NCBI GenBank assembly: GCA_902792895.1
Contig: CADBBK010000004.1
Span: 210,928-274,927, forward strand
Reading direction: 5' to 3'
Length of the DNA stretch: 64,000 nucleotides
Origin: an uncultured Bacteroidales bacterium
GTDB taxonomy: Bacteria; Bacteroidota; Bacteroidia; Bacteroidales; Muribaculaceae
The first letter of the stretch is position 1; each line of letters begins with the position of its first letter. Made by a program: the position numbers and the translations under genes. The notes beneath the pieces are model-generated. The model saw nothing but the letters and a program-made list of their open reading frames with translations. It did no database searches and was not told the origin of the DNA. Shown here piece by piece: positions 17,453 through 51,878 of this stretch.

Positions 17453-20400
17453 TCAGAACTGGAACTGAAGACCGAAGTTAAACACGCGAGCGGTAACATA
17501 GGTGTTATCAGAACCACCGCTGAAACTGTACTGGGGATTCACACCCTTGCGGGAAGTGAACGTAGCCAGGTTCTCAACACCAGCAGTGAGGGTGAGACCC
17601 TGCATACCAATCTTGTTCATCAACAGTCTGGGCACTGAGTAGCTCAAGGTGATGTTCTTTACTACGAAGTAGGAAGCACTGGTCAACCAGCGGTCACTGG
17701 TAGCGTTATTGTAAGTGCTGTTCTCGAAGTCGAGCTGAGGAATACCCTTAGGATCAATGCGGTTGGGAGAGTTCTCGGTCATGCCGGCGGGAACACCATT
17801 CCAGCTCTTGGCCAGGTCAACGTGGTTAGCAGCAGCCGAAGATGCCGAGTTGGTCGACATCAGGGTCTGATAAGCCGAGTCATAAACCTTGCCACCCAGG
17901 CTATAGGTGAACAGAGCGTTCAGAGCAAAGCCCTTGAAATTCAGAATCGAGTTCAACGAACCGAAGAACCAGGGGTGAGCAGTACCTGCCCAGTCACGCT
18001 TGCCATAGGAGCCAGGCATGGTGGTGTAGGTCTCGTCACCGATGGTAACGGTCTGGCCAGCAGCCTCAGCGCGCTCAGCCATATCAGGATCCAGGGTGTA
18101 CAGCGAGCGACCGGTCATCTGGTCAACGCCGACAAAGTGATAGGTGTAGAACTCGTAGGGGTCATGACCCTCGGAGTAGTTCTGCTGACCATGCAGGATG
18201 TCCTTTCCGTCGGGGAGCTTCTTGATCTTGCTCTTCATGAAGGTACCCTCGGTTGACAGCGTCCAGTTGAAGTCACGGCCGCGAATAACGTCAGCGCTCA
18301 ACGATATTTCGATACCGCGGTTAGAAATGGTACCGATGTTCTTGTAGATGCTCATGTTGTAGTCATCACCCCAAACAAACGAACCAGCCGACAGGGGCAG
18401 AGGAACAGCGAACAACAGGTCCTTGTTGCGCTTGTCAAACAGAACGAAGTTGAAGTTCAGACGGTCAAATACGCGACCCTCAATACCGAAGTCGATATTC
18501 TGACAGGTCTCCCACTTGATGTCGTTGGCGGCAAGGCTCTGCTTCATGAAGGCAGCGCTACCGGCGTTCTTCTCGATGTAATACAGTGCCTGGTAAGCAT
18601 AGAGGCTAACGCCCATGTTGTTACCGGTCTCACCATAAGAAGCGCGAACGCGCAGCTGGTCGAGCCAGTTTACATCCTGCAGGAAGTTCTCCTTCTTGAT
18701 GTTCCAGTTCAAACCGAACGAGAAGAAGTTACCCCAACGGTTATCCTTGGCAAAACGCGAAGAACCGTCGCGGCGGAACGAGAAGTCAGCGAAGTACTTC
18801 TCATAGTAGTTGTAGCGTGCACGACCCAGGTAGGACTCGGTCTTGTCCTCGTCATCCGAACCCTGGAAATAGGAGTTGGTCTGGAAGTTACCGGGGGTGT
18901 AGATACCATCGGCAGCCGAGCCAGTGTTCATACCGTAAGCCGAACGGCTGTTGTACTCATAGTTCTCATGAGCAAGCATCACGTCAACATGGTGACGATC
19001 AAAGTCACGGGCCCAGTTCAGGATTTCCTGAGCAGTGCGGGTGTTGTACTCATAAGCATAGCTGGTCAGACGACCATTGTTGGTAGAACCATCACCAATG
19101 AACGGGTTGTTGTAACGACGGCGATTGGTGTTGGAGTGCATGAAGTCAGCCTTCAACGTTACCGAGAAGCCGAAGGGCAGAGTGAAGGTACCATAGGCCA
19201 TACCCTCAACAACGGCGCGACGACGACGGTCGAAGTCCTTGCGCAACTCAAAGGCGATGTTGCGGTTGTCCAGATAAGAGGACTTGGTATCATACTGCTT
19301 CTCACCATTCTCGTCCAGCAGGAAGCTGCCGTCGGGGTTGTGCAGGAACAGAGGATAAACAGGAGCCATGTAGCGAGCTACATAGAAGGGGTTAGCATAG
19401 TAGTTACCAGTTGCATTGTCATTGAAGTTGCGGGTAGCATAGGTACCACTCAGGTTGATACCAGCCTTGAACCAGTCACTGGGAGTGAAGTTGGTGTTGA
19501 TACGGCCAGTGAAACGCTCATAGGCGCTAGCGTAGATATAACCTTTCTCGTTGGTGTAACCAGCCGAAGCATACATGTTATACTTCTCGCTACCAGCGGT
19601 GCCCGAAAGGCTGTAGTCCTGGCGATAGCCAGTGCGCTCAACGTCCTTTTCCCAATCCAGGTCGGTGTAACCGGGAAGAATCTGGGCAATCAGCTTACCG
19701 TTGGCATCAAACAGCTTATCATCGGGAGCATTGTAGATGTTCTTGCGTGCATAGTCACCAATCAGGTGCTGGGTAGCATACTGGCTTGCAGTAGCCTGAT
19801 CCAGACCCATGCTACCGTTCATGGCGTAGTTCCTCATGGCAAGCCAAGAAGCCTCCATCCACTGGTCGGCACCCATGCGGTCGTACTCAGCGATACCGCG
19901 CTTGTACAGACCCTGATTGATGCGCAGGGTTACATTGGGCTTAGATGCATAGTTACCCTTCTTGGTAGTAATCAGCACAACACCGTTAGCAGCACGGTTA
20001 CCATACAGGGCAGCCGATGCAGCGTCCTTCAACACGCTCATGCTCTCGATATCCACGGGATTGATCTCGGCAATGTTACCGTCAAATGCAACACCGTCAA
20101 CTACATACAGAGGAGCACTTGAACCGGTGATACTACCGATACCACGGATGCGGATGTTGGGAGCAGCACCAGGCTCACCATAGGTGTTGTTCACCTGGAT
20201 ACCGGGGGTGCTACCCTCGAGCGCTGCGGTAACCGAAGAACCGATGCGGTCTTTGATTTTCTTCTCGTCAACAACCGAGATTGAACCGGTAATTGACTGG
20301 CGCTTTGCACTACCGTAAGCAACAACCACAACCTCATCAAGGCTTTGGCCAGAGTCGGTCAGCTTTACAACCATGTTGGGAGTAACCTCTACCTGACGGG

Positions 20401-20635
20401 TAGCGTAGCCAATGTAAGATACGTTGACAAACTTCACATGGTCGGGTAATACCAGCGTGAAATGACCATTAACATCAGTTGCAGTGCCATGGTTGACACC
20501 CTCACCTTGGATTGTAGCACCAATCAGAGGATCACCAGTAGCTGCATCCAGTACTTGCCCGCTGATTGTGCGGTCGGCATACGCCGAGAGTGCCATGAAG
20601 CACATCGCAAACATTAACAGAAATAGCTTCTTCAT
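17453..20635 (-). CDS. SusC/RagA TonB-linked outer membrane protein
   Basis: The 1060-residue product has the standard SusC build. It has a signal peptide (MKKLFLLMFAMCFMALSAYA), a carboxypeptidase-regulatory-like domain (RTISGQVLDAATGDPLIGAT), a TonB box and plug (LDEVVVVAYGSAKRQSITGS, then SVLKDAASAALYGNRAANGV) and a barrel that ends in an aromatic strand (VFNFGLQFQF). Unlike the SusC at 380 it stops at the barrel and has no OmpA-like extension. It forms an operon with the SusD gene downstream. No regulator or hydrolase genes adjoin it. Confidence 0.95.
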   Translation of the reverse strand: MKKLFLLMFAMCFMALSAYADRTISGQVLDAATGDPLIGATIQGEGVNHGTATDVNGHFTLVLPDHVKFVNVSYIGYATRQVEVTPNMVVKLTDSGQSLDEVVVVAYGSAKRQSITGSISVVDEKKIKDRIGSSVTAALEGSTPGIQVNNTYGEPGAAPNIRIRGIGSITGSSAPLYVVDGVAFDGNIAEINPVDIESMSVLKDAASAALYGNRAANGVVLITTKKGNYASKPNVTLRINQGLYKRGIAEYDRMGADQWMEASWLAMRNYAMNGSMGLDQATASQYATQHLIGDYARKNIYNAPDDKLFDANGKLIAQILPGYTDLDWEKDVERTGYRQDYSLSGTAGSEKYNMYASAGYTNEKGYIYASAYERFTGRINTNFTPSDWFKAGINLSGTYATRNFNDNATGNYYANPFYVARYMAPVYPLFLHNPDGSFLLDENGEKQYDTKSSYLDNRNIAFELRKDFDRRRRAVVEGMAYGTFTLPFGFSVTLKADFMHSNTNRRRYNNPFIGDGSTNNGRLTSYAYEYNTRTAQEILNWARDFDRHHVDVMLAHENYEYNSRSAYGMNTGSAADGIYTPGNFQTNSYFQGSDDEDKTESYLGRARYNYYEKYFADFSFRRDGSSRFAKDNRWGNFFSFGLNWNIKKENFLQDVNWLDQLRVRASYGETGNNMGVSLYAYQALYYIEKNAGSAAFMKQSLAANDIKWETCQNIDFGIEGRVFDRLNFNFVLFDKRNKDLLFAVPLPLSAGSFVWGDDYNMSIYKNIGTISNRGIEISLSADVIRGRDFNWTLSTEGTFMKSKIKKLPDGKDILHGQQNYSEGHDPYEFYTYHFVGVDQMTGRSLYTLDPDMAERAEAAGQTVTIGDETYTTMPGSYGKRDWAGTAHPWFFGSLNSILNFKGFALNALFTYSLGGKVYDSAYQTLMSTNSASSAAANHVDLAKSWNGVPAGMTENSPNRIDPKGIPQLDFENSTYNNATSDRWLTSASYFVVKNITLSYSVPRLLMNKIGMQGLTLTAGVENLATFTSRKGVNPQYSFSGGSDNTYVTARVFNFGLQFQF

Positions 20636-21073
20636 AAATAGTGATGTTTAAATTAATAAATAGTAATATAATTGTTTCAATTAATGAGTTTACATGTAAT
20701 GTCTAAATGGTACTATAAACACAGCCGCATCATTAGATTTACAAGTTTGCAAAACTAGTAAAAAAATATAAAATATGCCCTAAAAATGGGGGGTTTTAAC
20801 TAATTGCCTGTGTTTTCTATCTTTTGACTCGGTGAATATTGAAAATAAAAATAAAAAGGAACTAATTTTTCATTTTATAACTAATTAATTGAATTACAAC
20901 CAAATAATCAAATATTACCGCTACAGTGGACAAAAAAGCGAGGGATTAAATCAAAATGTTAAAATAAACCCCCTTTAACATTTATAAATTAACTATATTT
21001 TGTGGCTTTTGTCTTGTTTTCGGCCCATTTTACGGCACTTTGGCAGCTATTCACAGCCTGTTAATAACTTTTT
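20636..21073. other. AT-rich intergenic region upstream of the second SusC gene
   Basis: No gene is seen. It contains the SusC promoter element near its left side and A/T-rich stretches throughout (for example 20756-20780 and 20840-20900). The far end carries the 3' side of the methyltransferase gene at 21074; no strong hairpin terminator is visible there. Confidence 0.5.
20750..20757 (-). promoter_or_regulatory. -7 promoter element of the second SusC/SusD operon
   Basis: Reads TAGTTTTG on the minus strand, an exact TAnnTTTG match, leaving a 5' leader of about 110 bases before the SusC ATG. Confidence 0.55.
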
Positions 21074-21616
21074 TTACTGCTTTTCAAGGCCTGATTTTTC
21101 AAAGCAATGCCACATCAAGATAGCGGCGCAACACGATATATTTAATGAGTGTTTAGTACCATATTGCGGAATTTCTACACACACGTCACTGACATCAACC
21201 ACCTCTTGGGACACCCCCTTGACTTCATTGCCCAGCACAATGGCCACACGCTGTCCCTTGTCAACAACAAATTGATCCAGACTCACACTGTTGTGCACCT
21301 GCTCAATCGAGCAGATGAGATAGCCTTCTTGCTTGAGCTGCTCCACGGCGGCAAGTGTGGTAGGATAGTATTGCCAGGCAACCGACTCCTCGGCTCCGAG
21401 GGCTGTCTTGTGAATCTCGGCTTTTGGCGGTTGCGGTGTAATGCCGCACAGGCAGATGCGCTCGATGAGGAAGGCGTCGGCTGTGCGAAATACCGAACCC
21501 ACATTCATCTCGCTGCGCACATTATCAAGCACCACAGTGACTGACAGCTTTTTCACCTCTTTATATTCGTCCACACCCACGCGGTGCAGTTCCAGCATCG
21601 ATTTCTTCTTTGCCAT
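21074..21616 (-). CDS. TrmH/SpoU-family RNA 2'-O-methyltransferase
   Basis: The 180-residue product is a SPOUT-fold methyltransferase using S-adenosylmethionine to methylate a ribose in tRNA or rRNA. The three family motifs are present: DNVRSEMNVGSVFRTADAF (motif 1, about 32-50), VAIVLGNEVKGVSQEVVD (motif 2, about 124-141) and IPQYGTKHSLNISCCAAI (motif 3, about 149-166). It lacks the N-terminal substrate-binding extension of RlmB-type enzymes, so the target cannot be assigned. It is transcribed alone. Confidence 0.92.
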   Translation of the reverse strand: MAKKKSMLELHRVGVDEYKEVKKLSVTVVLDNVRSEMNVGSVFRTADAFLIERICLCGITPQPPKAEIHKTALGAEESVAWQYYPTTLAAVEQLKQEGYLICSIEQVHNSVSLDQFVVDKGQRVAIVLGNEVKGVSQEVVDVSDVCVEIPQYGTKHSLNISCCAAILMWHCFEKSGLEKQ

Positions 21617-21643
21617 GAATTAAATTATGTGTCATTGTTTTCA

Positions 21644-21651
21644 CAAAGGTA
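21644..21651 (-). promoter_or_regulatory. -7 promoter element of the SpoU methyltransferase gene
   Basis: Reads TACCTTTG on the minus strand, an exact match, 27 bases before the ATG at 21616. Confidence 0.65.
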
Positions 21652-21925
21652 CAATTAATTTGCCGGACTTGGCGCATCATCCCGCTAGATATTCTTGAAT
21701 ATCTAGTGACATCCATTGTCAATTGCCACTATTATTGATGTCAAAAACCCTGTTAACTGCTGTTGAAAACTATTTGAAAAAAATCAATAAAAAACTCTTG
21801 ACAAATTCAAACTACTTCGGCTTATCAATCTTTTTCAGCCCGCCAAAAAAGTTAGCACAAAAATTTTATTCCTCTTTAAACACGGTTTTCATCACCTTTT
21901 GTACCAAAAATCGATAAGATTTTAT
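21652..21925. other. AT-rich spacer between the methyltransferase gene and nadA
   Basis: This divergent spacer carries no convincing gene; a 64-codon ORF at 21723-21917 is low-complexity and ends at the nadA promoter. AT content is high throughout. Confidence 0.45.
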
Positions 21926-21933
21926 TAACTTTG
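21926..21933 (+). promoter_or_regulatory. -7 promoter element of nadA
   Basis: TAACTTTG, an exact TAnnTTTG match. It lies about 208 bases before the nadA ATG, which implies an unusually long 5' leader. Confidence 0.6.
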
Positions 21934-21935
21934 CA

Positions 21936-22141
21936 GGTTGTTTACACCCTGTTAATAAACAACCGAAGTTGCTATGATACAGGACTTAGTCATGTTGATA
22001 AACTATCAATAATCTAATAGCACGAGTTGATAACTGCACAGCACGTTTGTGCGACGAAAAGTTATCTACACAATTAACAGGCATAATAGTTGTAGTTAAA
22101 TTTAAAGTTTTAAAAAATTAAAAAACAAAATAATATATAAT
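21936..22141 (+). promoter_or_regulatory. Long, hairpin-rich 5' leader of nadA
   Basis: Three stems can be read by eye. Stem 1: 21936-21944 with 21956-21964 (GGTTGTTTA / TAAACAACC, 9 perfect pairs). Stem 2: 21995-22000 with 22004-22009 (TTGATA / TATCAA). Stem 3: 22029-22035 with 22060-22066 (GATAACT / AGTTATC) stacked on 22036-22040 with 22048-22052 (GCACA / TGTGC), with a seven-base bulge GACGAAA. The last 50 bases before the ATG are nearly pure A and T. A regulatory role, such as NAD-responsive control, is inference; I do not recognise a known riboswitch class. Confidence 0.5.
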
Positions 22142-41277: not shown

Positions 41278-41280
41278 TTT

Positions 41281-41412
41281 TTTAGGCTTTAGCTCTTAGG
41301 CTTTAGGTGTTAGGCTTTAGGCTTTAGGTGTTAGGTTTTAGGCTTTTTCACTCCTAACTCCTAACTCCTCACTCCTAACTCCTAACTTCTAACTCCTCAC
41401 TCACAATAACTC
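41281..41412. repeat. Longest heptamer-type array, TTAGG(N) units then CTCCTAA units
   Basis: 41281-41345 holds TTTAGGC/TTAGGTGT-type units on the plus strand, and 41350-41410 holds about eight ACTCCTA/ACTCCTC units. The two halves are loosely complementary and could fold on each other. It separates nadK from the dockerin gene ending at 41418, both on the minus strand, so it is in the nadK upstream region. Confidence 0.85.
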
Positions 41413-41417
41413 CTCAC

Positions 41418-42770
41418 TCAATAACTGATAAAGAACACTCGCTCATCCTCGTCGTTGAGGGTGGTGTAGCCGTCGGCGACTGTGAGCGTGCCTTCCACGT
41501 CAAGGGCTTTGCCCTCGGTGGCGCAGCTGTAGAACGAGCCGCCCTGGATGGTGCAGTCGCTGTCGCATTTCACACCCTTGGGGGTGACCATGTCCTTCTT
41601 GCCGGTGCACACCACGTTGAGTTCGCCGCCGGTGAACAGCAGCGGCTGGGCCACATTGATGCCCTTGGCGTCGTTGCCGGTGCACTTGATGTTGAGCGTG
41701 CCGCCCGTCATGGTCATGTTGTAGTCCGACTTCACGCCGGCAGCGCTCGTCGTGACGATGTTCCCCAGCGAGTCGGTCTCCTCCCTGTAGGTGCCCGAGT
41801 TGATGATGGTGGTGCGTCCGCCGGTGATGTATACCAGGCTGTCACAGTTGATGCCCTTGGAGCCGTTGGAGGCAATCTCCATGTTGATGACGCCACCCTT
41901 GATGTGGACATAGTCCTTGCCCTTGATGCCGTGGCCGCTGGTGCTGTTCAGGTAGAGCTGGCTGCCGGGGCGCACCATCACATAGTCGTCACTGGCCAGG
42001 CAGTGCTTGCCGGTGCTGTAGATGTTGAGTCGGCCCTTGCCGCTCACCAGTATCTGTCCCTCGCTGAAGACGGCCCCCTTCTGGTCCTCGTCTCCCTCCA
42101 TGGTGTAGGTTTCGCCGTCGCGCAGGGTGTTCTCGGTGCCCTCGTTGAGCACCAGGTAGAGCGACTTGCCGCACTGGTTGTTGATGGCGGCACCGTTGGG
42201 GTTGGTGATGTCCACACCGTCGAGCTGGACTTGGAATTTCTTGTCGCTGTAGAACTTGAGCGAGCCGTTGGCGGTCGAGCCTGTCACGATGTAGCGCACG
42301 CGCTTGGCGGCACTGGTAAACGTGAGATGGGCGCCGTCGATGTTCACGATGACCGAGCTGGGGTTGCCCGTCACCGTGGCGGTCTCGCCGTCGAAGGTGA
42401 TTCGCACTGTCGTGGACCAGGTGGTGTTCTCGACATAGTCGCCGTAGTCGGGCGCGTCCTCGTCGTCGGGAATGAGTTCCGAGGGCTCGTCCAGGGCGCT
42501 GAAGTCGAGTTCTATCTCCTTGGGCGTGAGCTCATCGTCGTCGCTGCCGTAGATGATGATGTTGATGATGAAATTGACGTCGCCCACCGTGATCTCGCCG
42601 TCACCGTTCACGTCGGCAGCGCTGTTGCTCGAACTGCCCAAGATGACCTCGATCACGGCATTGATGTCGCTCACCGTCACCTCGCCGTCACCGTTCACGT
42701 CGCCGTTGAGGGCCGATGCCTGCAGTGTCATGGCGCTGATAAAGGCCGCTAGCAGTAATATTCTCTTCAT
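41418..42770 (-). CDS. Cthe_2159-like carbohydrate-binding beta-helix protein with N-terminal dockerin pair
   Basis: The 450-residue secreted product has a signal peptide (KRILLLAAFISAMTLQASA), then two dockerin-type calcium repeats: GDVNGDGEVTVSDINAVIEV (about 23-43) and ADVNGDGEITVGDVNFIINI. The rest resembles the Cthe_2159/DUF4353 right-handed beta-helix, with repeated rungs such as GAAINNQCGKSLYLVL, VRPGSQLYLNSTSGHGIKGK, GSKGINCDSLVYITGG and TPKGVKCDSDCTIQGG. Characterised relatives bind acidic polysaccharide and calcium. It is a diverged paralogue of the next gene upstream and has its own promoter element. No cohesin partner is seen. Confidence 0.82.
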   Translation of the reverse strand: MKRILLLAAFISAMTLQASALNGDVNGDGEVTVSDINAVIEVILGSSSNSAADVNGDGEITVGDVNFIINIIIYGSDDDELTPKEIELDFSALDEPSELIPDDEDAPDYGDYVENTTWSTTVRITFDGETATVTGNPSSVIVNIDGAHLTFTSAAKRVRYIVTGSTANGSLKFYSDKKFQVQLDGVDITNPNGAAINNQCGKSLYLVLNEGTENTLRDGETYTMEGDEDQKGAVFSEGQILVSGKGRLNIYSTGKHCLASDDYVMVRPGSQLYLNSTSGHGIKGKDYVHIKGGVINMEIASNGSKGINCDSLVYITGGRTTIINSGTYREETDSLGNIVTTSAAGVKSDYNMTMTGGTLNIKCTGNDAKGINVAQPLLFTGGELNVVCTGKKDMVTPKGVKCDSDCTIQGGSFYSCATEGKALDVEGTLTVADGYTTLNDEDERVFFISY

Positions 42771-42870
42771 GTCGATGATGATGTTATTATTGTTATTTCT
42801 GGAACGATATAGAAGTTGATTCTTTTACCCCGTGAAGCCAATTTCACAAACAAAAGTCGTATTTAATAAG

Positions 42871-42878
42871 CAAAATTA
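42871..42878 (-). promoter_or_regulatory. -7 promoter element of the dockerin/Cthe_2159-like gene
   Basis: Reads TAATTTTG on the minus strand, an exact match, about 100 bases before the start. Confidence 0.5.
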
Positions 42879-42922
42879 GTAAAATTCGCATTAGCCCCGC
42901 AGGGAGAGCATTGCAGTTGTTT

Positions 42923-44137
42923 CTAATAGGCTATCGTCACCACGCGCGGCCCCGATTCCCATGTCGTGTAACCTGGGGCGACCGTGGTGTTGCCGTTCAC
43001 GTCGAGCGGGTCGTTGCGGCGGCTGTAGGTGTAGAAATACCCGCCGCTGATGCTGAAGTTGCCGTCAACATTCACCCCCTTGGGCTTTTTTAATTCCTTG
43101 GTGCCTGTCGCTACGGCCTGGAAACGGCCTCCGCCGATGGCCACGTCTTGCTTGGCGTTCAGGCCCTTGCCACCGTCACCGGTCGCCTTGAGCTGGATGA
43201 TGCCGGCATTGACGGTCACGAGCGTGTCGCAGTATAGGGCCGCACATGCCGTGGTATCGTTGATGCCATCGACGGTCTCGATGCGCGTGTCGCCGCTGCT
43301 GATGGCCACCAGGCGCCCGCCGTTGACACGCATCACGCCGCCGCTGCGCACGCCCTTGGCGCCAGCGCCCGTCGTCTCGACATTGATCATGCCGCCGTCG
43401 AGGATGATGCCGTCGTTGGCACGCAGGCCGTCAAGCGCCGTACTGTTGACATATAGTTGCACGCCGGGGCGCACGCGGATGTAGTCGTCGCTGCGCACAC
43501 CACCGCGGCCCACGGCATAGACGTTGAGCCGTCCCGTGCCGCTGAAGATAATCTGTCCCTCGCTGAATAGGGCCGCTTTCTCGTCCTCTTCCTCGTCGAT
43601 GATTGTGTAGGTGCTGCCGTCCTGCAGACGGTTGGTCGTGCCGTCGGCCAGGACCACATAGAGCGTCTTGCCGCCCTGGTTGTTGATGGCGGCACCATGG
43701 GGATTGGTGATATCGGCCCCGTTGAGCAGCAACTGGAAGCGCTTGTCACCGTAGAACTTCAACGAGCCGTTGGCGGTCGTGCCGCTCACGACAAACTTGA
43801 CGGGTCCCGACAGGTTGGTCACGGTGAGGTGGGCGCCCTCACGCACTACGGCCACGCCGCTCACGCTGCCGGTGACCGTGGCATTCTCGCCGTCGAAGTG
43901 GATGGAAATCTCCTTGGACCACGGGCTGTTCTCGACATAGTCGTTGTAGCTGGGGTCGTCCTCGTCGGTGACGGGCACGTCAGGGGCCTCGCTCAGGGGG
44001 CTGAAGTCCAGCTCGATTTCCACGGGCTGCACCATGTATTGGGCGATGATGTCGTCCATGTCGGTATCATCCTTCTGGCATGACGCCAAGGCCATGCCCA
44101 AGGTCAGCAGCAACACACTGTAGTATATCTTTTTCAT
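42923..44137 (-). CDS. Cthe_2159-like carbohydrate-binding lipoprotein
   Basis: The 404-residue product has a lipoprotein signal (KKIYYSVLLLTLGMALASC). The remainder matches the protein at 41418 along its length: an acidic linker (EIELDFSPLSEAPDVPV against EIELDFSALDEPSELIP), NDYVENSPWS, the conserved KFYGDKRFQLLLNGADIT and NPHGAAINNQGGKTLYV blocks, and the beta-helix rungs. It lacks the dockerin pair and is instead anchored by lipid. It probably binds anionic glycan at the surface. It follows the DUF2490 gene with a 15-base gap. Confidence 0.85.
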   Translation of the reverse strand: MKKIYYSVLLLTLGMALASCQKDDTDMDDIIAQYMVQPVEIELDFSPLSEAPDVPVTDEDDPSYNDYVENSPWSKEISIHFDGENATVTGSVSGVAVVREGAHLTVTNLSGPVKFVVSGTTANGSLKFYGDKRFQLLLNGADITNPHGAAINNQGGKTLYVVLADGTTNRLQDGSTYTIIDEEEDEKAALFSEGQIIFSGTGRLNVYAVGRGGVRSDDYIRVRPGVQLYVNSTALDGLRANDGIILDGGMINVETTGAGAKGVRSGGVMRVNGGRLVAISSGDTRIETVDGINDTTACAALYCDTLVTVNAGIIQLKATGDGGKGLNAKQDVAIGGGRFQAVATGTKELKKPKGVNVDGNFSISGGYFYTYSRRNDPLDVNGNTTVAPGYTTWESGPRVVTIAY

Positions 44138-44152
44138 CTTGCGTTAATGCCT

Positions 44153-44911
44153 TTAGAACTTGTAAGTGTATCCCAGGCCCAGCATGTGGATGTTGGGCTC
44201 ATCGCTGTCGCCCCTCGTGAGCTGGTAGCGGTAATAGAGCTTGAACTCGTGGGTCTTCTTGATGGTGTAGGCAGTGCCGATAATGAAGCGCGTCTTCTCG
44301 AGCTCGCGCGCCATGTGCAGCTCGACGCTGGCAAACGGGTCGAACTTGCTCCGCGGGATGGACCACTCCGCCTGCAGGCGGCTGCGCAGCATGTTCTTGC
44401 CCTTGCCCTTCACCTCGTGGTCCTCCCACTCGCCCTCGTCAAAGTCGAAGTTGTCGATGATCTTCGAGGGACGGTAGGTGTACTGCCAGCGTTCACGCAG
44501 GCTCAGTTCCACTCGCTTGATCTTGTAGCTCGCCGTGAGCGACACGTTGAAGCGGTGACGCAGGCCCCAGTAGCTGGGGCGCCAGTTGTTGTAGCTCACG
44601 CCATCGTCCTGATAGGTGAGTTTTTCCTGATTGTTGCTGATGAGCAGGTTGTAGCCGGCACTGGCCTTGAGCCAGGGCAGCAACTTGTAGCTGATGCTCG
44701 CACCCAGGCTCACGCGGTCGGCGGTGCGGAAGTCGTTGCGTGAGCGGAACTCGGCCTCAAAGCCGGCGTTCAGCCCCTTTTTGATCTTGCGTGTGGCCTC
44801 TACACTGAGCAACAACCCGGCATCGTCGGCGAGCGACGGTGTCGGGAACAGTGTGGCACACAGCATGAGCAGCAGCACTGCCGTCAGTTGTTTTCTTTTA
44901 CATCTTGCCAT
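44153..44911 (-). CDS. DUF2490-family outer-membrane beta-barrel protein
   Basis: The 252-residue product has a signal peptide (QLTAVLLLMLCATLFPTPSLA) and alternating strands with many aromatic and Arg residues (FEAEFRSRNDFRTADRVSLG, YNNWRPSYWGLRHRFNVSL, LSLRERWQYTYRPSK). It ends with a typical barrel strand, MLGLGYTYKF. DUF2490 proteins are predicted small outer-membrane barrels of unknown function. The start codon overlaps the end of the DUF4956 gene by 28 bases, and the Cthe_2159-like gene follows 15 bases on, so the locus is one operon. Confidence 0.82.
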   Translation of the reverse strand: MARCKRKQLTAVLLLMLCATLFPTPSLADDAGLLLSVEATRKIKKGLNAGFEAEFRSRNDFRTADRVSLGASISYKLLPWLKASAGYNLLISNNQEKLTYQDDGVSYNNWRPSYWGLRHRFNVSLTASYKIKRVELSLRERWQYTYRPSKIIDNFDFDEGEWEDHEVKGKGKNMLRSRLQAEWSIPRSKFDPFASVELHMARELEKTRFIIGTAYTIKKTHEFKLYYRYQLTRGDSDEPNIHMLGLGYTYKF

Positions 44912-45624
44912 TCGTCCTTGTGAATTTTTAACGTGCTATTGACTTGCCTCTCGTTATCACCATTGCTCTCGTATTCTATCTTGAGGATGGCCGTGTCCTT
45001 CAGGAAGTCGATGGAGCCCACATTGACCTTGGTAATGTTCAGGCCGGTGCGCTTCTTCAGGTCCTCCAGGAGTTCCTCGCGCCGCTCGGGTGAGATGAGT
45101 TCGATGCGGTCATACAGTATCAGCTTGCTGGACAGGTTGGCCGGCAGCACCAGGGCCTCAAACAGCCATATCAGCACCGCGATGGCCACATTGGGGACCA
45201 GCAGCTCGATTACGCTCAGCGAGTCGGCCAGCGCATTGATGACCGACAGACTGATGACGCCGAACATGTAGGACATCTCGCGCACGGGTATTGTCTCGGT
45301 GCGGTAGCGCAGCACGCCGAAGATGGCGAACAGTCCCAGGGCGAAGCCGATTTTCACCTTCACGCTGCCCAGCAGGTAGATGAGGAAGAAGATGCTCACG
45401 CTCAGCAGTACAAGCGTGAAGAAATAGTCGCGGCGGTGAGTTTTGCGGTAATAGAGAAAGTAAACGATGAAGAACAGCACCAGCAGGAAGAATCCGAAGC
45501 GTATCAGCATCTCGGACACTCCGGCAGCGTCAAACCAGCGGACGTCTGATGCAGCAATATTGATAGCGTCCTGCAAGGTCTCAGTGCCTTCATCTAGGGA
45601 TGATAAATCCTGTAATAGTCTCAT
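44884..45624 (-). CDS. DUF4956 integral membrane protein
   Basis: The 246-residue product has four transmembrane segments (about 40-60, 72-90, 95-112 and 125-165), with the family signature AIFGVLRYRTETIPVREMSY. A soluble C-terminal domain follows (LISPERREELLEDLKKRTG). The function is unknown. The family is often found beside VTC-domain polyphosphate-polymerase-like proteins, as here. Gap to the VTC gene is 48 bases. Confidence 0.85.
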   Translation of the reverse strand: MRLLQDLSSLDEGTETLQDAINIAASDVRWFDAAGVSEMLIRFGFFLLVLFFIVYFLYYRKTHRRDYFFTLVLLSVSIFFLIYLLGSVKVKIGFALGLFAIFGVLRYRTETIPVREMSYMFGVISLSVINALADSLSVIELLVPNVAIAVLIWLFEALVLPANLSSKLILYDRIELISPERREELLEDLKKRTGLNITKVNVGSIDFLKDTAILKIEYESNGDNERQVNSTLKIHKDEWQDVKENN

Positions 45625-45672
45625 AAATCGTGTTTTTTATATCTTTCGTTGGCAGTTGATGTTGTTGATACA

Positions 45673-46470
45673 CTAGACGGCTCTTTCACTCGACAGCAGG
45701 CGGTCAATCAGGCGGAGCCGTTCCTTGAAGTTGTTGCGCTTCAGGCTGGGGTTGGTCAGCGCCGAGCCCATGCAGTACTTGCTGAAACCGCATGGCTTGA
45801 TGCGCAGCTCGCGCAGCATCCCCAAGATGGGCGACGGCTGCAGGCCGTCGCGTTTCAGTTCGATGATGGCCAGTCCCGTGAGGTCGGCTCTGCGGTCGGT
45901 CATCAGGTTGTGGAACCGCAGGTTGGTGTCGATGGTCAGGCGCTCGGTCTTGGCCTTGTTCACCAGCGTGATGCGGTTGAAGTTATTTTCCAGATGCTCG
46001 GTCAGGATGGTCGGGTCGTAGCGCAGGTGCTTGCGCAGGAACTGGTCATAGGCCACGAACTGACTGTCCTGGCGCTGGAAGCAGATGCCGTGGTCGGGAT
46101 TCGACGGGTCGAAGCCCACCATATCCACGCGCTTCTTCTTAGTGCGCCCGTGGTTGTTCTTGGTCTTCACTTCCAGGAAGTTGAGCCCGGTGTCCATGTA
46201 GGAACGGATGCGCAGTTTCTGGCGCCCGGCGTGGCCGTTCTGGTGAACGATGTACATGTTGTTGTCAGGCGTGTCGAAGTAAGCCGTGTAGTAGCTCGCA
46301 ATGCGCATCCCGTCGATGTCCTGGGCGCGGTAGTCGTCGTAGGCGAGCGCCAACAGGAGTTTAAGCCGGCTGACCGTCGTGACAAACTTGGTGTCGGTGC
46401 GGTTCATCAGCTTAATGCCACTCATCTCATCGAGAGTGATAGGGTGATATGTCCTGATGATGTCGTCCAT
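45673..46470 (-). CDS. VTC-domain (polyphosphate polymerase-like) triphosphate tunnel protein
   Basis: The 265-residue product has the basic and acidic tunnel motifs of the VTC/TTM fold. These are LMNRTDTKFV (about 20), YFDTPDN, KLRIRSYMD, LNFLEVKTKNNHGRTKKKRV, ERLTIDTNLRF, LAIIELKRDG and GFSKYCMG. In yeast VTC4 such a domain makes polyphosphate from ATP. Whether this bacterial form makes polyphosphate, or transfers phosphate to something else, is not settled by sequence. It is the first gene of the DUF4956/DUF2490/Cthe_2159 operon. The start codon lies eight bases from the promoter element, suggesting a leaderless mRNA. Confidence 0.87.
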   Translation of the reverse strand: MDDIIRTYHPITLDEMSGIKLMNRTDTKFVTTVSRLKLLLALAYDDYRAQDIDGMRIASYYTAYFDTPDNNMYIVHQNGHAGRQKLRIRSYMDTGLNFLEVKTKNNHGRTKKKRVDMVGFDPSNPDHGICFQRQDSQFVAYDQFLRKHLRYDPTILTEHLENNFNRITLVNKAKTERLTIDTNLRFHNLMTDRRADLTGLAIIELKRDGLQPSPILGMLRELRIKPCGFSKYCMGSALTNPSLKRNNFKERLRLIDRLLSSERAV

Positions 46471-46478
46471 CGGGAGCG

Positions 46479-46486
46479 CAAAGATA
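46479..46486 (-). promoter_or_regulatory. -7 promoter element of the VTC-domain operon
   Basis: Reads TATCTTTG on the minus strand, an exact match, eight bases before the ATG. Confidence 0.65.
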
Positions 46487-46643
46487 TATCAAAAAACGCA
46501 GAATTAAACCATGAATTGTGATTTCTCGCATGAAAATCAGTTAAATAGTGATTTTCATCAGCCAAAAATCAAACGAAGGCCCACCAGTAATAGCGTTGCC
46601 AAAACACAATATCGGATTCACCGTCAGGCCACATTTGGCAATA

Positions 46644-49034: not shown

Positions 49035-51878
49035 ATGAGAAAAACAATCTTGACCTTAATGATGCTGATGTGCTGTGGCATCGCAGCAGTGGCGATGCCC
49101 GCCAAGCCAGGCTGGCACACTATCAGTCAGAGTGACGGCACCACCTTGCAGGTGCGGGGTGCGGGCAATGCCTTCAACAGCGCCATCCTCACCCGTGACG
49201 GGCTGACGGTGGCCCGTGGCAGTGACGGCGACTTCTACTACACCTCGTCGTTGACGGGCTTGACCGCCATGCGCGCCCATGAAGTGGGCCAGCGTACCCC
49301 GGCCGAGGAGGCTTTCATCGGTGCACAGCGCGGAAACCTGGTGATGTCCCGCAATCCCTACAAGATGAGGACGGGCAGTCACGGTAAGCTGGGTGTGGGC
49401 GGCAGCAATGCCGAATCGGGCGTTCCCGCCTATGGGCAGCGCCGCATCCCCATCATCCTGGTAGAGTTTAAGGACAAGAAATTCGGCAACACCCGTCAGG
49501 ACATCATCGATGCCATGCTCACGGGCGACTCGAGTGTGGGACAGTACTTCCGTGACCAGTCCAACGGGATTTACCAACCCGATTTTGAAGTCTTCGGTAT
49601 CTACACGCTGAGCCAGAACCGTGTGTATTACGGTGGTCATCAGGGTGATAACAACGACAAGGGCTTGGGTTACATGGTGACCGAGGCAGTCCAGCTGGCG
49701 GCAGCCGACGGTGTCTCGTTCAAGCCCTACGATACCAACAATGACGACTACTGCGACGTGGTTATCGTCATCTATGCCGGCGTGGGCGAGGCTCAGGCCT
49801 ATTATGAGCACCCCGAGGCCATCTGGCCCTGCAACTGGAACCTCGGCTCGGCTGCTTACTACGGCACGGGTGGCAACGGTGCTTTCCGTCCCAACAGCGG
49901 CGACCCGCTGGTTGACACGTTTGCCGTGTTCAACGAGCTGCATGGCAGCAATGACAATACCACGACCATCGACGGCATCGGCACCTTTGCCCACGAGTTC
50001 GGCCATTGCCTGGGCTTGCCCGACTTCTATGACACGGGCGACAGCGAACACTACGGCATGGGCGACTGGGATATCATGTGCATGGGCTGTTACAACAACG
50101 ATGGCTACACGCCCGCTGGCTATACGGCCTATGAGAAGAATTTCATGGGGTGGATTGACTTTATCACCCCGCGTGCCGGCACCTATTACACGCTGCCCGT
50201 GTTCAACCAGAAGCAGGCTGCTACCGACAAGGCCGTGTGCATCACCAGCCCCCTGAACGAGAACGAATACTTCATCCTGGAGAACCGCAAGAAGCAGGGC
50301 TGGGACCGCTATGCACCCGGCGAGGGAATCATGATTACCCATGTGACCTATAATGCCGACCGCTGGTGGTCCGACTCCCCCAACAACGAGGATATCCAGC
50401 TGATGACCTTGATGAACGCCGACAATTCCTGGTCCTATTATGATGAGCATACCGACCTGTGGCCGCAGAACGGCAAGACGGAGTTCACCGACAATTCGAT
50501 ACCTGCCGCCCGGCTCAACATGAAGGCCAACGGCGGCATCACGGGCAATGCCGGCTACCTGGGCCAGCCCGTCACCGAGATGGTCATCAATGCCGACGGC
50601 ACGGCCAGCTTCTGGTACATGAAGGGGGCTTCGACGACCCCGGTGGTGTCGGTTTCGACCGATGCCATCGACTTTGGCGGTGTGATGATGAACAATGCTG
50701 GAACCCGCATCCTCAAGGTGATTGGTGGCGCATTGGCAGGTGATGTGACGTTGACGGTCAATGATGCCAACGGGGTATTCTCCGTTGAGCCTGCCGTGCT
50801 CAGTGCTGCCGATGCCGCCAATGGTGTGGACGTGAACGTCACGTTCGCGCCGGCTGCCATTACAGATTACAACGCGACGTTGACCATCAGCAGCAATGGC
50901 GCCGAGGATGTGGTGGTGAGCCTCACGGGCCACGGCTTGATCGAGGGCTATACCCCCGTGATGCAGCCTGCCGACGAGAGCGCCATCAACCTGACCAAAT
51001 TCCGTGCTGACTGGACCGACCAGTCACCTGCCCAGAATGTGTCCAGCTACACCCTCGAGGTGATGCCCAAACCTGAGTTTGTACTGCTGGAAACGGCCGA
51101 CTTCAGCGATGTGCCCGACGCCCTGACCGAGGACGGCCAGGGGCTGGCCGATATCTCGGGCAACTATGCCGACTACCTGCCTGACGGTTGGTCGGGAACC
51201 TCCTATCTGGGCGCCTACGGCAATGCGCTGATTCTCGCCTATGAGGGAACCCTGCGCTCACCATTCTACAACCTCACGGGCTACAACAAAGTGACCGTGG
51301 TGGTCAAGGCGCAAGCCTATTACTATGACAGCGCTGCCATCAGCGTGTCCACCAGTTTGGGTTCGCAGGAGCTCGTCCTTGACGAGTCGATGCGTGAGTA
51401 CACCGTGGTGCTCGACTGTGCCGATGTTGATGCTGTAATTTTGACCTCGCTGGAGAACTATGCCAGCGTTCGCCAGGTGGTGATTTATGCCGGCGAGCAG
51501 GTGGCCAAGCTCCGTGCCACCGAACAGGGAGATGCCGTCTATCGACTGATTACGGGTATCACGGGCAAGTCCTACACCGTGACCGGCCTCGAGGCTGGCG
51601 GTACCTACATCTACAAGGTGAAGGCGCTGTTTGCCGACGGCACCGAGAGTCCCTGGAGCAACATCGAGCAGGTGACCTTGTTCGAGAACGGCCACGGATT
51701 CGCGTTGGGCGACGTGGACCATGACGGTGAGGTGGCTATCAACGATGTGAGTCGGCTCATCGACATGCTGATGGGCAATGACGCTGGCTGTTGCAGCATC
51801 TGTGCCGACATCGATGAGGACGGCGAGGTTTCCATCGCCGACGTGAGCCTTCTCATCGACATGCTGCTCACCAACTAA
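49035..51878 (+). CDS. M6-family metallopeptidase with C-terminal dockerin
   Basis: The 947-residue secreted product has a signal peptide (RKTILTLMMLMCCGIAAVA) and an M6 (immune-inhibitor-A-like) catalytic domain with the zinc motif AHEFGHCLGLPDFYD (about 320). Beta-sandwich modules follow, including VVSVSTDAIDFGGVMMNNAG (a choice-of-anchor or ASPM-type repeat) and a fibronectin-like segment. A C-terminal dockerin has two calcium loops: GDVDHDGEVAINDVSRLIDM and ADIDEDGEVSIADVSLLIDM. The dockerin may tether the enzyme or act as a sorting or stability module. It has its own promoter. The sequence does not say what it cuts. Confidence 0.9.
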   Translation: MRKTILTLMMLMCCGIAAVAMPAKPGWHTISQSDGTTLQVRGAGNAFNSAILTRDGLTVARGSDGDFYYTSSLTGLTAMRAHEVGQRTPAEEAFIGAQRGNLVMSRNPYKMRTGSHGKLGVGGSNAESGVPAYGQRRIPIILVEFKDKKFGNTRQDIIDAMLTGDSSVGQYFRDQSNGIYQPDFEVFGIYTLSQNRVYYGGHQGDNNDKGLGYMVTEAVQLAAADGVSFKPYDTNNDDYCDVVIVIYAGVGEAQAYYEHPEAIWPCNWNLGSAAYYGTGGNGAFRPNSGDPLVDTFAVFNELHGSNDNTTTIDGIGTFAHEFGHCLGLPDFYDTGDSEHYGMGDWDIMCMGCYNNDGYTPAGYTAYEKNFMGWIDFITPRAGTYYTLPVFNQKQAATDKAVCITSPLNENEYFILENRKKQGWDRYAPGEGIMITHVTYNADRWWSDSPNNEDIQLMTLMNADNSWSYYDEHTDLWPQNGKTEFTDNSIPAARLNMKANGGITGNAGYLGQPVTEMVINADGTASFWYMKGASTTPVVSVSTDAIDFGGVMMNNAGTRILKVIGGALAGDVTLTVNDANGVFSVEPAVLSAADAANGVDVNVTFAPAAITDYNATLTISSNGAEDVVVSLTGHGLIEGYTPVMQPADESAINLTKFRADWTDQSPAQNVSSYTLEVMPKPEFVLLETADFSDVPDALTEDGQGLADISGNYADYLPDGWSGTSYLGAYGNALILAYEGTLRSPFYNLTGYNKVTVVVKAQAYYYDSAAISVSTSLGSQELVLDESMREYTVVLDCADVDAVILTSLENYASVRQVVIYAGEQVAKLRATEQGDAVYRLITGITGKSYTVTGLEAGGTYIYKVKALFADGTESPWSNIEQVTLFENGHGFALGDVDHDGEVAINDVSRLIDMLMGNDAGCCSICADIDEDGEVSIADVSLLIDMLLTN

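Follow-up and report, generated by a model that had tools for sequence, protein, structure and literature searches.

A Bacteroidales VTC-DUF4956-DUF2490 locus and its possible relationship to a widespread envelope module with CotH-type kinases

We have analyzed a five-gene locus within a 64,000-nucleotide stretch of DNA from an uncultured Bacteroidales bacterium (hereafter the window; genome G000, contig C4:210928-274927, in an assembly of 3.2 Mb and 58 contigs that is 96% complete). In order of transcription the genes encode a VTC-type triphosphate tunnel protein, a DUF4956 membrane protein, a DUF2490 protein predicted to form an outer-membrane barrel, and two Cthe_2159 beta-helix proteins. 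Their positions and Pfam families agree with the order on one strand given in a first-pass annotation of the window. VTC and DUF4956 are one unit, and it is very probable that DUF2490 acts together with them. Judged from gene content and order across genomes, VTC-DUF4956-CotH is a widespread core. We tentatively regard the locus as the form taken in this lineage by a widespread envelope module in which VTC would make a polymer, DUF4956 would export it and surface proteins would use it; our confidence in this full chain falls somewhat short of even.

Gene order was compared in 60 genomes drawn evenly from the order, with family matches accepted at E ≤ 0.001. Of these genomes 28 have VTC, 31 DUF4956, 25 DUF2490 (23 of them above the curated cut-off), 10 Cthe_2159 and 34 CotH. 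Fetching 27 VTC-centered regions besides the window gave 28 loci. By open reading frame (ORF) calling VTC and DUF4956 are adjacent in 26 of the 27, with VTC first in 23 and DUF4956 first in 3. In the twenty-seventh (G039) the VTC frame is hidden by an over-long ORF, and the Pfam coordinates still place it adjacent to DUF4956. The pair is adjacent in the window too. DUF2490 directly follows DUF4956 in 12 of the 27 fetched loci and in the window (13/28); in L062 it precedes VTC. A DUF4956-DUF2490 pair of Bacteroides thetaiotaomicron, BT3498-99, is also named in PMC10434189. Because the order VTC-DUF4956-DUF2490 recurs in related genomes, a lack of conserved order cannot be held against the coordinated gene set proposed in the first-pass annotation, and that proposal is borne out.

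The Cthe_2159 genes are a patchy addition, outside the core of the module. They are present at the VTC locus in 3 of the 28 cases, namely the window, L051, where DUF2490 directly precedes the gene just as it does in the window, and L059, where the gene comes before VTC. Away from VTC, Cthe_2159 is the immediate neighbor of DUF2490 in L069; in L064 the two are close together, along with a LytTR/LytS-type pair. Such a pair also follows DUF2490 in L042, L059 and L061 (families verified on L061). We lean towards the Cthe_2159 genes being functionally part of the set. The downstream slot is occupied by other genes in L053, L056, L060 and L047, as read from their first 45 residues. Two partner genes were also scanned; c4 (138 residues, secreted by eye) has no Pfam family, and c5 has Ig/prealbumin-like Pfam matches.

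Co-occurrence across genomes supports the same grouping. In the order sample DUF4956 is present in 28/28 genomes with VTC vs 3/32 of the others (Fisher 4e-14), CotH in 24/28 vs 10/32 (p 2.4e-5) and Cthe_2159 in 9/28 vs 1/32 (p 0.004), and all ten Cthe_2159 genomes have DUF2490, compared with 15/50 of those remaining (p 4e-5). A second sample comprised 148 Bacteroidota genomes at least 90% complete, only G000 being common to both. In this phylum sample VTC was found in 29 genomes, DUF4956 in 45 and CotH in 60. Every VTC genome (29/29) has DUF4956, and every one has CotH, compared with 31/119 without VTC (p 2e-14); CotH accompanies DUF4956 in 42 of 45 genomes vs 18/103 lacking DUF4956 (p 5e-19). 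These p-values overstate independence because the genomes are related. The earlier statement that VTC and DUF4956 often occur together holds for all the VTC genomes of both samples.

Bacterial polyphosphate synthesis is usually credited to PPK enzymes, and the window's genome gave no match to PPK1. It could thus be argued that VTC makes ordinary storage polyphosphate in place of PPK1, its neighbors being incidental. We consider this very improbable, because PPK1 is as common with VTC (18/28) as without it (20/32; order sample, hand count) and the neighbors are strongly non-random; on the equal frequency of PPK1 it was rejected as the principal explanation.

In sequence, the VTC protein has the features expected of a VTC-type polymerase domain. 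VTC is the sole domain in the 265-residue window protein (Pfam, E ≤ 0.01), with a score of 92 bits against a curated cut-off of 23 (PF09359). Unlike the eukaryotic VTC complex, it has neither an SPX domain nor membrane helices of its own at the same Pfam threshold. Thirteen residues (R24, K28, R87, R89, E100, K102, K112, R166, R177, E204, K206, S230 and K231) are invariant in 27/27 order-level proteins, and in a wider set each is present in 84/84, or in 83/84 with one gap. Counted by hand along an alignment to 8i6v, their counterparts in Vtc4 are R196, K200, R264, R266, E279, K281, K294, R361, R373, E426, K428, S457 and K458. Of these, the tunnel residues other than R264, R266 and E426 are presumably important as well. 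The R264A/R266A/E426N variant of yeast Vtc4 is described as catalytically impaired (PMC9911596). A profile of the 27 proteins searched against the PDB matched only Vtc4 and Vtc2 (seven sequences up to E 10, best 4.2e-14), the yeast Vtc4 structures 3g3q and 8i6v among them. As far as sequence can tell the tunnel residues have been kept, so the polymer-making role first suggested is not weakened by their loss, and the protein is probably a cytosolic polyphosphate polymerase domain. Tunnel enzymes do share their mechanism across diverse reactions (PMC4641920), and eukaryotic VTC has SPX and membrane parts that the window protein lacks. The latter might then be a tripolyphosphatase, a nucleotide triphosphatase or a cyclase that makes no polymer, but the PDB matches are to Vtc4 and Vtc2 only and Pfam names VTC alone, and we regard such an activity as quite improbable.

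We have extended the comparison to other phyla by a contig scan with seven divergent DUF4956 proteins, taking the best 80 of at least 586 loci. Their source lineages include Bacteroidota, Chloroflexi, Planctomycetota, Verrucomicrobiota, Myxococcota, SAR11, Nitrospina, Calditrichaeota and others. Ten loci were dropped for lack of a labeled DUF4956 ORF and 70 were counted. Within two same-strand genes of DUF4956 there is CotH in 52/70, VTC in 52/70 and both in 40/70, with 19 of the 70 loci reaching a locus end inside two genes. The commonest orders are DUF4956-CotH-VTC (25 loci) and CotH-DUF4956-VTC (13). Of the DUF4956-CotH-VTC triads, 22 are strictly contiguous, with genes that overlap or are no more than 38 bp apart. 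CotH neighbors, to which the first-pass annotation had drawn attention, are thus frequent in these loci, and a CotH Pfam match also falls within 9 of the 27 VTC regions fetched from the order.

Ten of the CotH labels were scanned with Pfam and seven were backed at E ≤ 1e-3 (L094, L155, L157, two of L108, L105 and L121). In four of the ten (L094, L155, L157 and one of L108) a right-handed Beta_helix follows the CotH kinase domain, two of these matches being under the Pfam cut-off. Since Cthe_2159 is itself a beta-helix, this fold recurs, fused to CotH elsewhere and as separate proteins at the window locus. Searched against the PDB, the CotH protein of L042 found CotH 5jd9, and the CotH-labeled protein of SAR11 locus L128 found nothing at E ≤ 0.01. 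A crude test for a hydrophobic 17-mer in the first 90 residues was positive in 62/69 CotH-labeled proteins vs 0/59 VTC proteins. The CotH kinase is therefore probably outside the membrane and VTC inside. Such a location is as good an argument for extracytoplasmic phosphate transfer as for polymer display, or a better one.

The full chain would run as follows. VTC would polymerize phosphate from ATP on the cytosolic side of the inner membrane, giving polyphosphate or a similar phosphoanhydride chain, and DUF4956 would dock VTC and form or gate a route through that membrane. DUF2490 may be the outer-membrane passage or an anchoring site. Once outside, the phosphate would be used or held by CotH-type extracytoplasmic kinases and by beta-helix proteins, CotH being provided by the same operon in many phyla and from elsewhere in the genome here, and the two Cthe_2159 beta-helices would be placed at the surface, on an anionic glycan or calcium. 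In a more specific form, polyphosphate made by VTC and exported by DUF4956 would feed CotH kinases in the ATP-poor extracytoplasmic space, a trans-envelope phosphoryl supply line to surface glycans or proteins; we offer this as a speculation that is unlikely as it stands. It is similarly doubtful that one such supply line extends from SAR11 to Chloroflexi, with the window locus as a Bacteroidales form having its own barrel and beta-helix receivers.

CotH and dockerins are both found in the window's own genome. There are 14 CotH matches, on contigs C9, C12, C15, C23 and C51, and Pfam identified the CotH domain in all 11 of the proteins scanned. Dockerin_1 is present on 8 of the 10 in the main scan and not on the eleventh, L175:4112-5611 (E ≤ 1e-3), so that the module is common to most scanned CotH proteins and the last gene of the window locus. 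Three cohesin matches place dockerins and cohesins together in this genome, as would suit a cellulosome-like dockerin/cohesin system. A further Cthe_2159 gene on contig C7 adjoins a dockerin protein on the opposite strand. Two clusters on contig C9 were noted separately. At L174:3226-9691 three CotH genes in a row are followed directly by the gene for a 176-residue cohesin protein, one of the cohesin matches just mentioned; two of the three CotH genes are Pfam-confirmed and carry dockerins, and the middle one was assigned by profile and by eye. At L175:2627-8001 two CotH genes are followed by a gene for a NAGPA phosphodiester glycosidase (Pfam 1.1e-13), and this neighbor hints at phosphodiester-linked sugars as the target. 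In the order sample, an arylsulfotransferase-like cluster is found near CotH and VTC in L038, L041, L042 and L061 (family and type IX secretion system tail verified on L042 only), making neighbors of sulfate- and phosphate-transfer-type enzymes.

A number of observations weigh against the module as we have drawn it. There is no CotH at the window locus, and none of the 14 matches lies on contig C4. CotH is without VTC and DUF4956 in 18/60 CotH genomes of the phylum sample, and so has no need of the module. Four of the 28 VTC genomes in the order sample are without CotH, and a control, Bacteroides ihuae, has VTC, DUF4956, Cthe_2159 and DUF2490 and no CotH match. DUF4956 is found without VTC in 16/45 DUF4956 genomes of the phylum sample, and no VTC gene was seen in any of the eight DUF4956-only loci fetched. 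The 80 cross-phylum loci were chosen by DUF4956 and their CotH labels rest on an iterated profile; those in L131, L128 and L120 were without Pfam support at E ≤ 1e-3. To these must be added the scarcity of Cthe_2159 at VTC loci. Dockerins are also present on other proteins of the genome, for example a window peptidase, and the dockerin link between CotH and Cthe_2159 is for that reason suggestive only. Among the 14 control genomes in the family searches, C. glutamicum and M. acetivorans match VTC, DUF4956 and CotH, and B. subtilis matches CotH and not VTC or DUF4956. B. subtilis CotH acts in the mother cell.

DUF4956 is the proposed membrane partner of VTC. The first-pass annotation had a four-helix membrane protein, but in the predicted model (mean pLDDT 79, pTM 0.63) there are five helices of membrane length and, at the C-terminus, a ferredoxin/ACT-like domain of strand-helix-strand-strand order. 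The model has no PDB fold match at E ≤ 0.001 by Foldseek, and a DUF4956 profile found no PDB match up to E 10; a copy of a solved membrane channel was accordingly dismissed by fold and by profile. As the membrane part is without a solved fold relative, the channel role is a guess, which also tells against the export step. The weak Foldseek matches include ACT-type proteins such as AcuB. In profile-profile comparison with four Bacteroidales MgtC proteins, a set of seven divergent DUF4956 proteins aligned over 212 columns at a probability of 97.5, all 29 DUF4956 proteins together reached 72, and the window type alone 0.4. The window protein has no MgtC/SapB (PF02308) match at E ≤ 0.01, and weak Pfam MgtC matches (0.03-0.06, under the cut-off) occur in three relatives. 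We treat MgtC kinship as a lead. In three Chloroflexi loci (L105, L113 and L121, the last presumably of that phylum) DUF4956 carries an N-terminal 3keto-disac_hyd domain and, by eye, a signal peptide, which would place the N-terminus outside in these proteins.

The MgtC alignment, the weak MgtC matches in three relatives and the ACT-type matches would suit a regulatory role, in which VTC and DUF4956 sense cytosolic ATP, inorganic phosphate or polyphosphate and exert an MgtC-like control over exopolysaccharide synthesis or envelope proteins; triads also lie beside exopolysaccharide genes in our loci, and beside pel in those of PMC7112168. We think such a role rather unlikely, given the failure of the window-type DUF4956 to align with MgtC by itself and the presence of adaptor-like neighbors, one with an OEP-like protein (E 0.0019), that suit transport better.

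These HlyD-like adaptors were called by cluster or position in L036, L038-L040, L163-L166, L170 and L180. Pfam was run on those of L040, L163, L164, L170 and L180 only, and the matches are mostly under the Pfam cut-off. One adaptor-like cluster adjoins VTC in L036, L038, L039 and L040 (HlyD_D23 4.7e-5 in L040, under cut-off). Loci were fetched for 8 of the 16 DUF4956-only genomes of the phylum sample. In four of them (L163-L166, one family) the two genes after DUF4956 encode proteins of about 330 and 410 residues, with HlyD_D23 at 1.4e-6 and the OEP match in L163, and HlyD_D23 at 1.2e-5 and no OEP in L164. L170 has CotH, DUF4956, a Biotin_lipoyl/HlyD-like protein and a 416-residue protein without a Pfam match. 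In L167:9419-11868 (G108) DUF4956 is followed by a secreted 341-residue protein, CotH-like by eye and with no CotH match in Pfam up to E 1, and then a metallophosphatase. L168 and L169 (G076 and G084) each have a short DUF4956 of 185-186 residues beside a convergent gene of 625-631 residues, with no labeled VTC or CotH nearby and nothing recognizable. The genes of G194 read as adaptor-like, VTC, DUF4956 and CotH, the only Pfam match of the adaptor being HlyD_3 (0.042). An apparent VTC fusion in the same genome (a 787-residue frame) was set aside as an artefact of G+C-rich sequence.

Polysaccharide genes are also found around the triad. MBOAT and AlgX-like genes adjoin it in L083 and L088, the fetched loci L095 and L103 contain MBOAT at some distance from the triad, and sugar-nucleotide or glycosyltransferase genes occur in L108, L120 and L155. 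The context is not universal, because the triad of SAR11 locus L128 sits between amino-acid biosynthesis genes.

The remaining proteins of the window locus are predicted to lie at the outer membrane and surface. The DUF2490 model is a barrel (mean pLDDT 85) of 13 predicted strands, two short ones in one hairpin; porins of the NanC/KdgM type have 12. Its best Foldseek match in the PDB is the NanC porin 2wjq (E 5.7e-5, TM 0.45/0.53, 13% identity); AlgE and KdgM rank lower, with the unrelated VDAC, OmpC and FadL barrels in between. The two Cthe_2159 proteins score 140 and 147 bits against a curated cut-off of 25.8 (PF14262), and the profile matches the solved beta-helix 4peu (E 5.4e-42). We take 4peu and 4phb to be Cthe_2159 of Clostridium thermocellum. 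Binding of calcium and of acidic sugars or cellulose is ascribed to the family. As first annotated, one copy is lipid-anchored and the other bears a dockerin, the latter at the N-terminus (residues 23-72 by Pfam), directly after the signal peptide. From its lipid cysteine the lipoprotein starts C-Q-K-D-D-T. This fits the optimal Capnocytophaga surface-export signal, given as C-X-K-(D/E)2-X (PMC5080379), and makes a surface location reasonable; the B. fragilis consensus reported in the same source differs, being SDDDD.

These properties bear on a further explanation, close to that of the first-pass annotation: VTC and DUF4956 would export polyphosphate, or assist the export of an anionic polysaccharide, and Cthe_2159 would keep it at the surface as a calcium-bridged matrix, with CotH a separate matter. 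The surface-export-like signal and the rank of the acidic-sugar porin NanC as best match of the DUF2490 model are in keeping with it, as is the occurrence of DUF2490 and Cthe_2159 without CotH at the three VTC loci that have Cthe_2159, with no CotH match at all in the genome of L059 or in Bacteroides ihuae. Yet the unrelated OmpC, FadL and VDAC barrels score about equally against DUF2490, and VTC tracks CotH (29/29 in the phylum sample, 24/28 in the order sample) far more closely than it does Cthe_2159 (9/28 in the order sample). We regard display of this kind as unlikely.

The features of the locus are collected in Table 1.

Table 1. Genes and intergenic regions of the VTC-DUF4956 locus, in window coordinates.
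Feature	Coordinates	Strand	Support
VTC-type triphosphate tunnel protein, 265 residues	45673..46470	-	Pfam PF09359 E 5.7e-26
DUF4956 membrane protein, 246 residues	44884..45624	-	Pfam PF16316 E 5.4e-52
DUF2490 outer-membrane beta-barrel (predicted), 252 residues, N-terminal signal-like helix	44153..44911	-	Pfam PF10677 E 5e-28
Cthe_2159 beta-helix lipoprotein, 404 residues	42923..44137	-	Pfam PF14262 E 9.2e-41
Second Cthe_2159 beta-helix protein, 450 residues, signal peptide and dockerin pair	41418..42770	-	Pfam PF14262 E 6e-43; PF00404 E 2.8e-10
Intergenic region 5' of VTC, possible promoter region of the gene set	46471..46643	-	
Intergenic region 3' of the last gene, possible transcript end	41278..41417	-	RNA fold

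The VTC and DUF4956 genes are 48 bp apart, the DUF4956 gene has a 28-bp overlap with that for DUF2490, and 15 bp lie between DUF2490 and the Cthe_2159 lipoprotein gene. The fifth gene is preceded by a gap of 152 bp, and so could have its own promoter. Near the VTC ATG, TATCTTTG resembles what we take to be the Bacteroidota -7 element; scans for sigma-70-type promoters and for terminators gave sites at or below the shuffle level. By Pfam the set is flanked on its own strand by genes for an AXE1-type esterase (upstream) and an NAD kinase (downstream). The stretch separating the NAD kinase from the last gene holds degenerate short repeats with complementary halves and a strong predicted hairpin (-44.9 kcal/mol, calculated without a shuffle control). 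Five further window genes were included in the Pfam scan and none was named Pel, no Pel profile search having been made. Elsewhere in the window, an M6-type peptidase with a C-terminal dockerin is encoded at 49035-51878 on the plus strand, and the G+C content is 0.42 at 20001-22000 vs 0.50-0.60 across the remaining 2-kb steps.

If the full chain is true, a VTC polymerase, a membrane partner and kinases outside the cell would constitute a second route to polyphosphate, one that serves the surface. The DUF4956-CotH-VTC operon, which occurs in Bacteroidota, Chloroflexi, Planctomycetota, Verrucomicrobiota, SAR11 and others, makes it possible to test how extracytoplasmic kinases are supplied with a phosphate donor. 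We found no paper joining CotH with polyphosphate export in the open-access literature searched. What seems to be new is how widely the triad is distributed, the predicted placing of VTC inside and CotH outside the membrane, the recurring beta-helix, and a Bacteroidales form that has DUF2490 and Cthe_2159.

Several known systems share parts of this arrangement. The yeast VTC complex, in which the Vtc4 tunnel domain is coupled to a membrane channel (PMC9911596), has in common a tunnel domain with aligned catalytic residues and a membrane component alongside, but the window VTC is without SPX and helices of its own, and DUF4956 is proposed as a separate membrane partner. In Gram-positive pel clusters CotH, a poly-phosphate polymerase, DUF4956 and DUF4832 are reported as contiguous accessory genes, with a regulatory kinase proposed (PMC7112168). 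The VTC-type gene and DUF4956 pair is common to the window; there, according to that account, CotH is contiguous and pel adjoins, whereas at the window locus the pair is accompanied by DUF2490 and two Cthe_2159 genes, and CotH is absent. NELoc-2 of Clostridium perfringens is described as holding VTC, 'tubulin', CotH and chitin synthase genes in one locus (PMC2879425), the VTC genes being followed by cytoplasmic-membrane proteins of 222-226 residues. From their length and place we infer that the 'tubulin' genes may be DUF4956. NELoc-2 differs in being Gram-positive, with two VTC pairs, and is known in that source by annotation. MgtC/SapB (PF02308) has a similar layout to DUF4956, membrane helices then a small C-terminal domain, but the window type has no direct match. 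Cthe_2159 of C. thermocellum has the beta-helix in common with the two window copies, which differ in being a predicted surface lipoprotein and a dockerin-bearing protein, encoded beside VTC.

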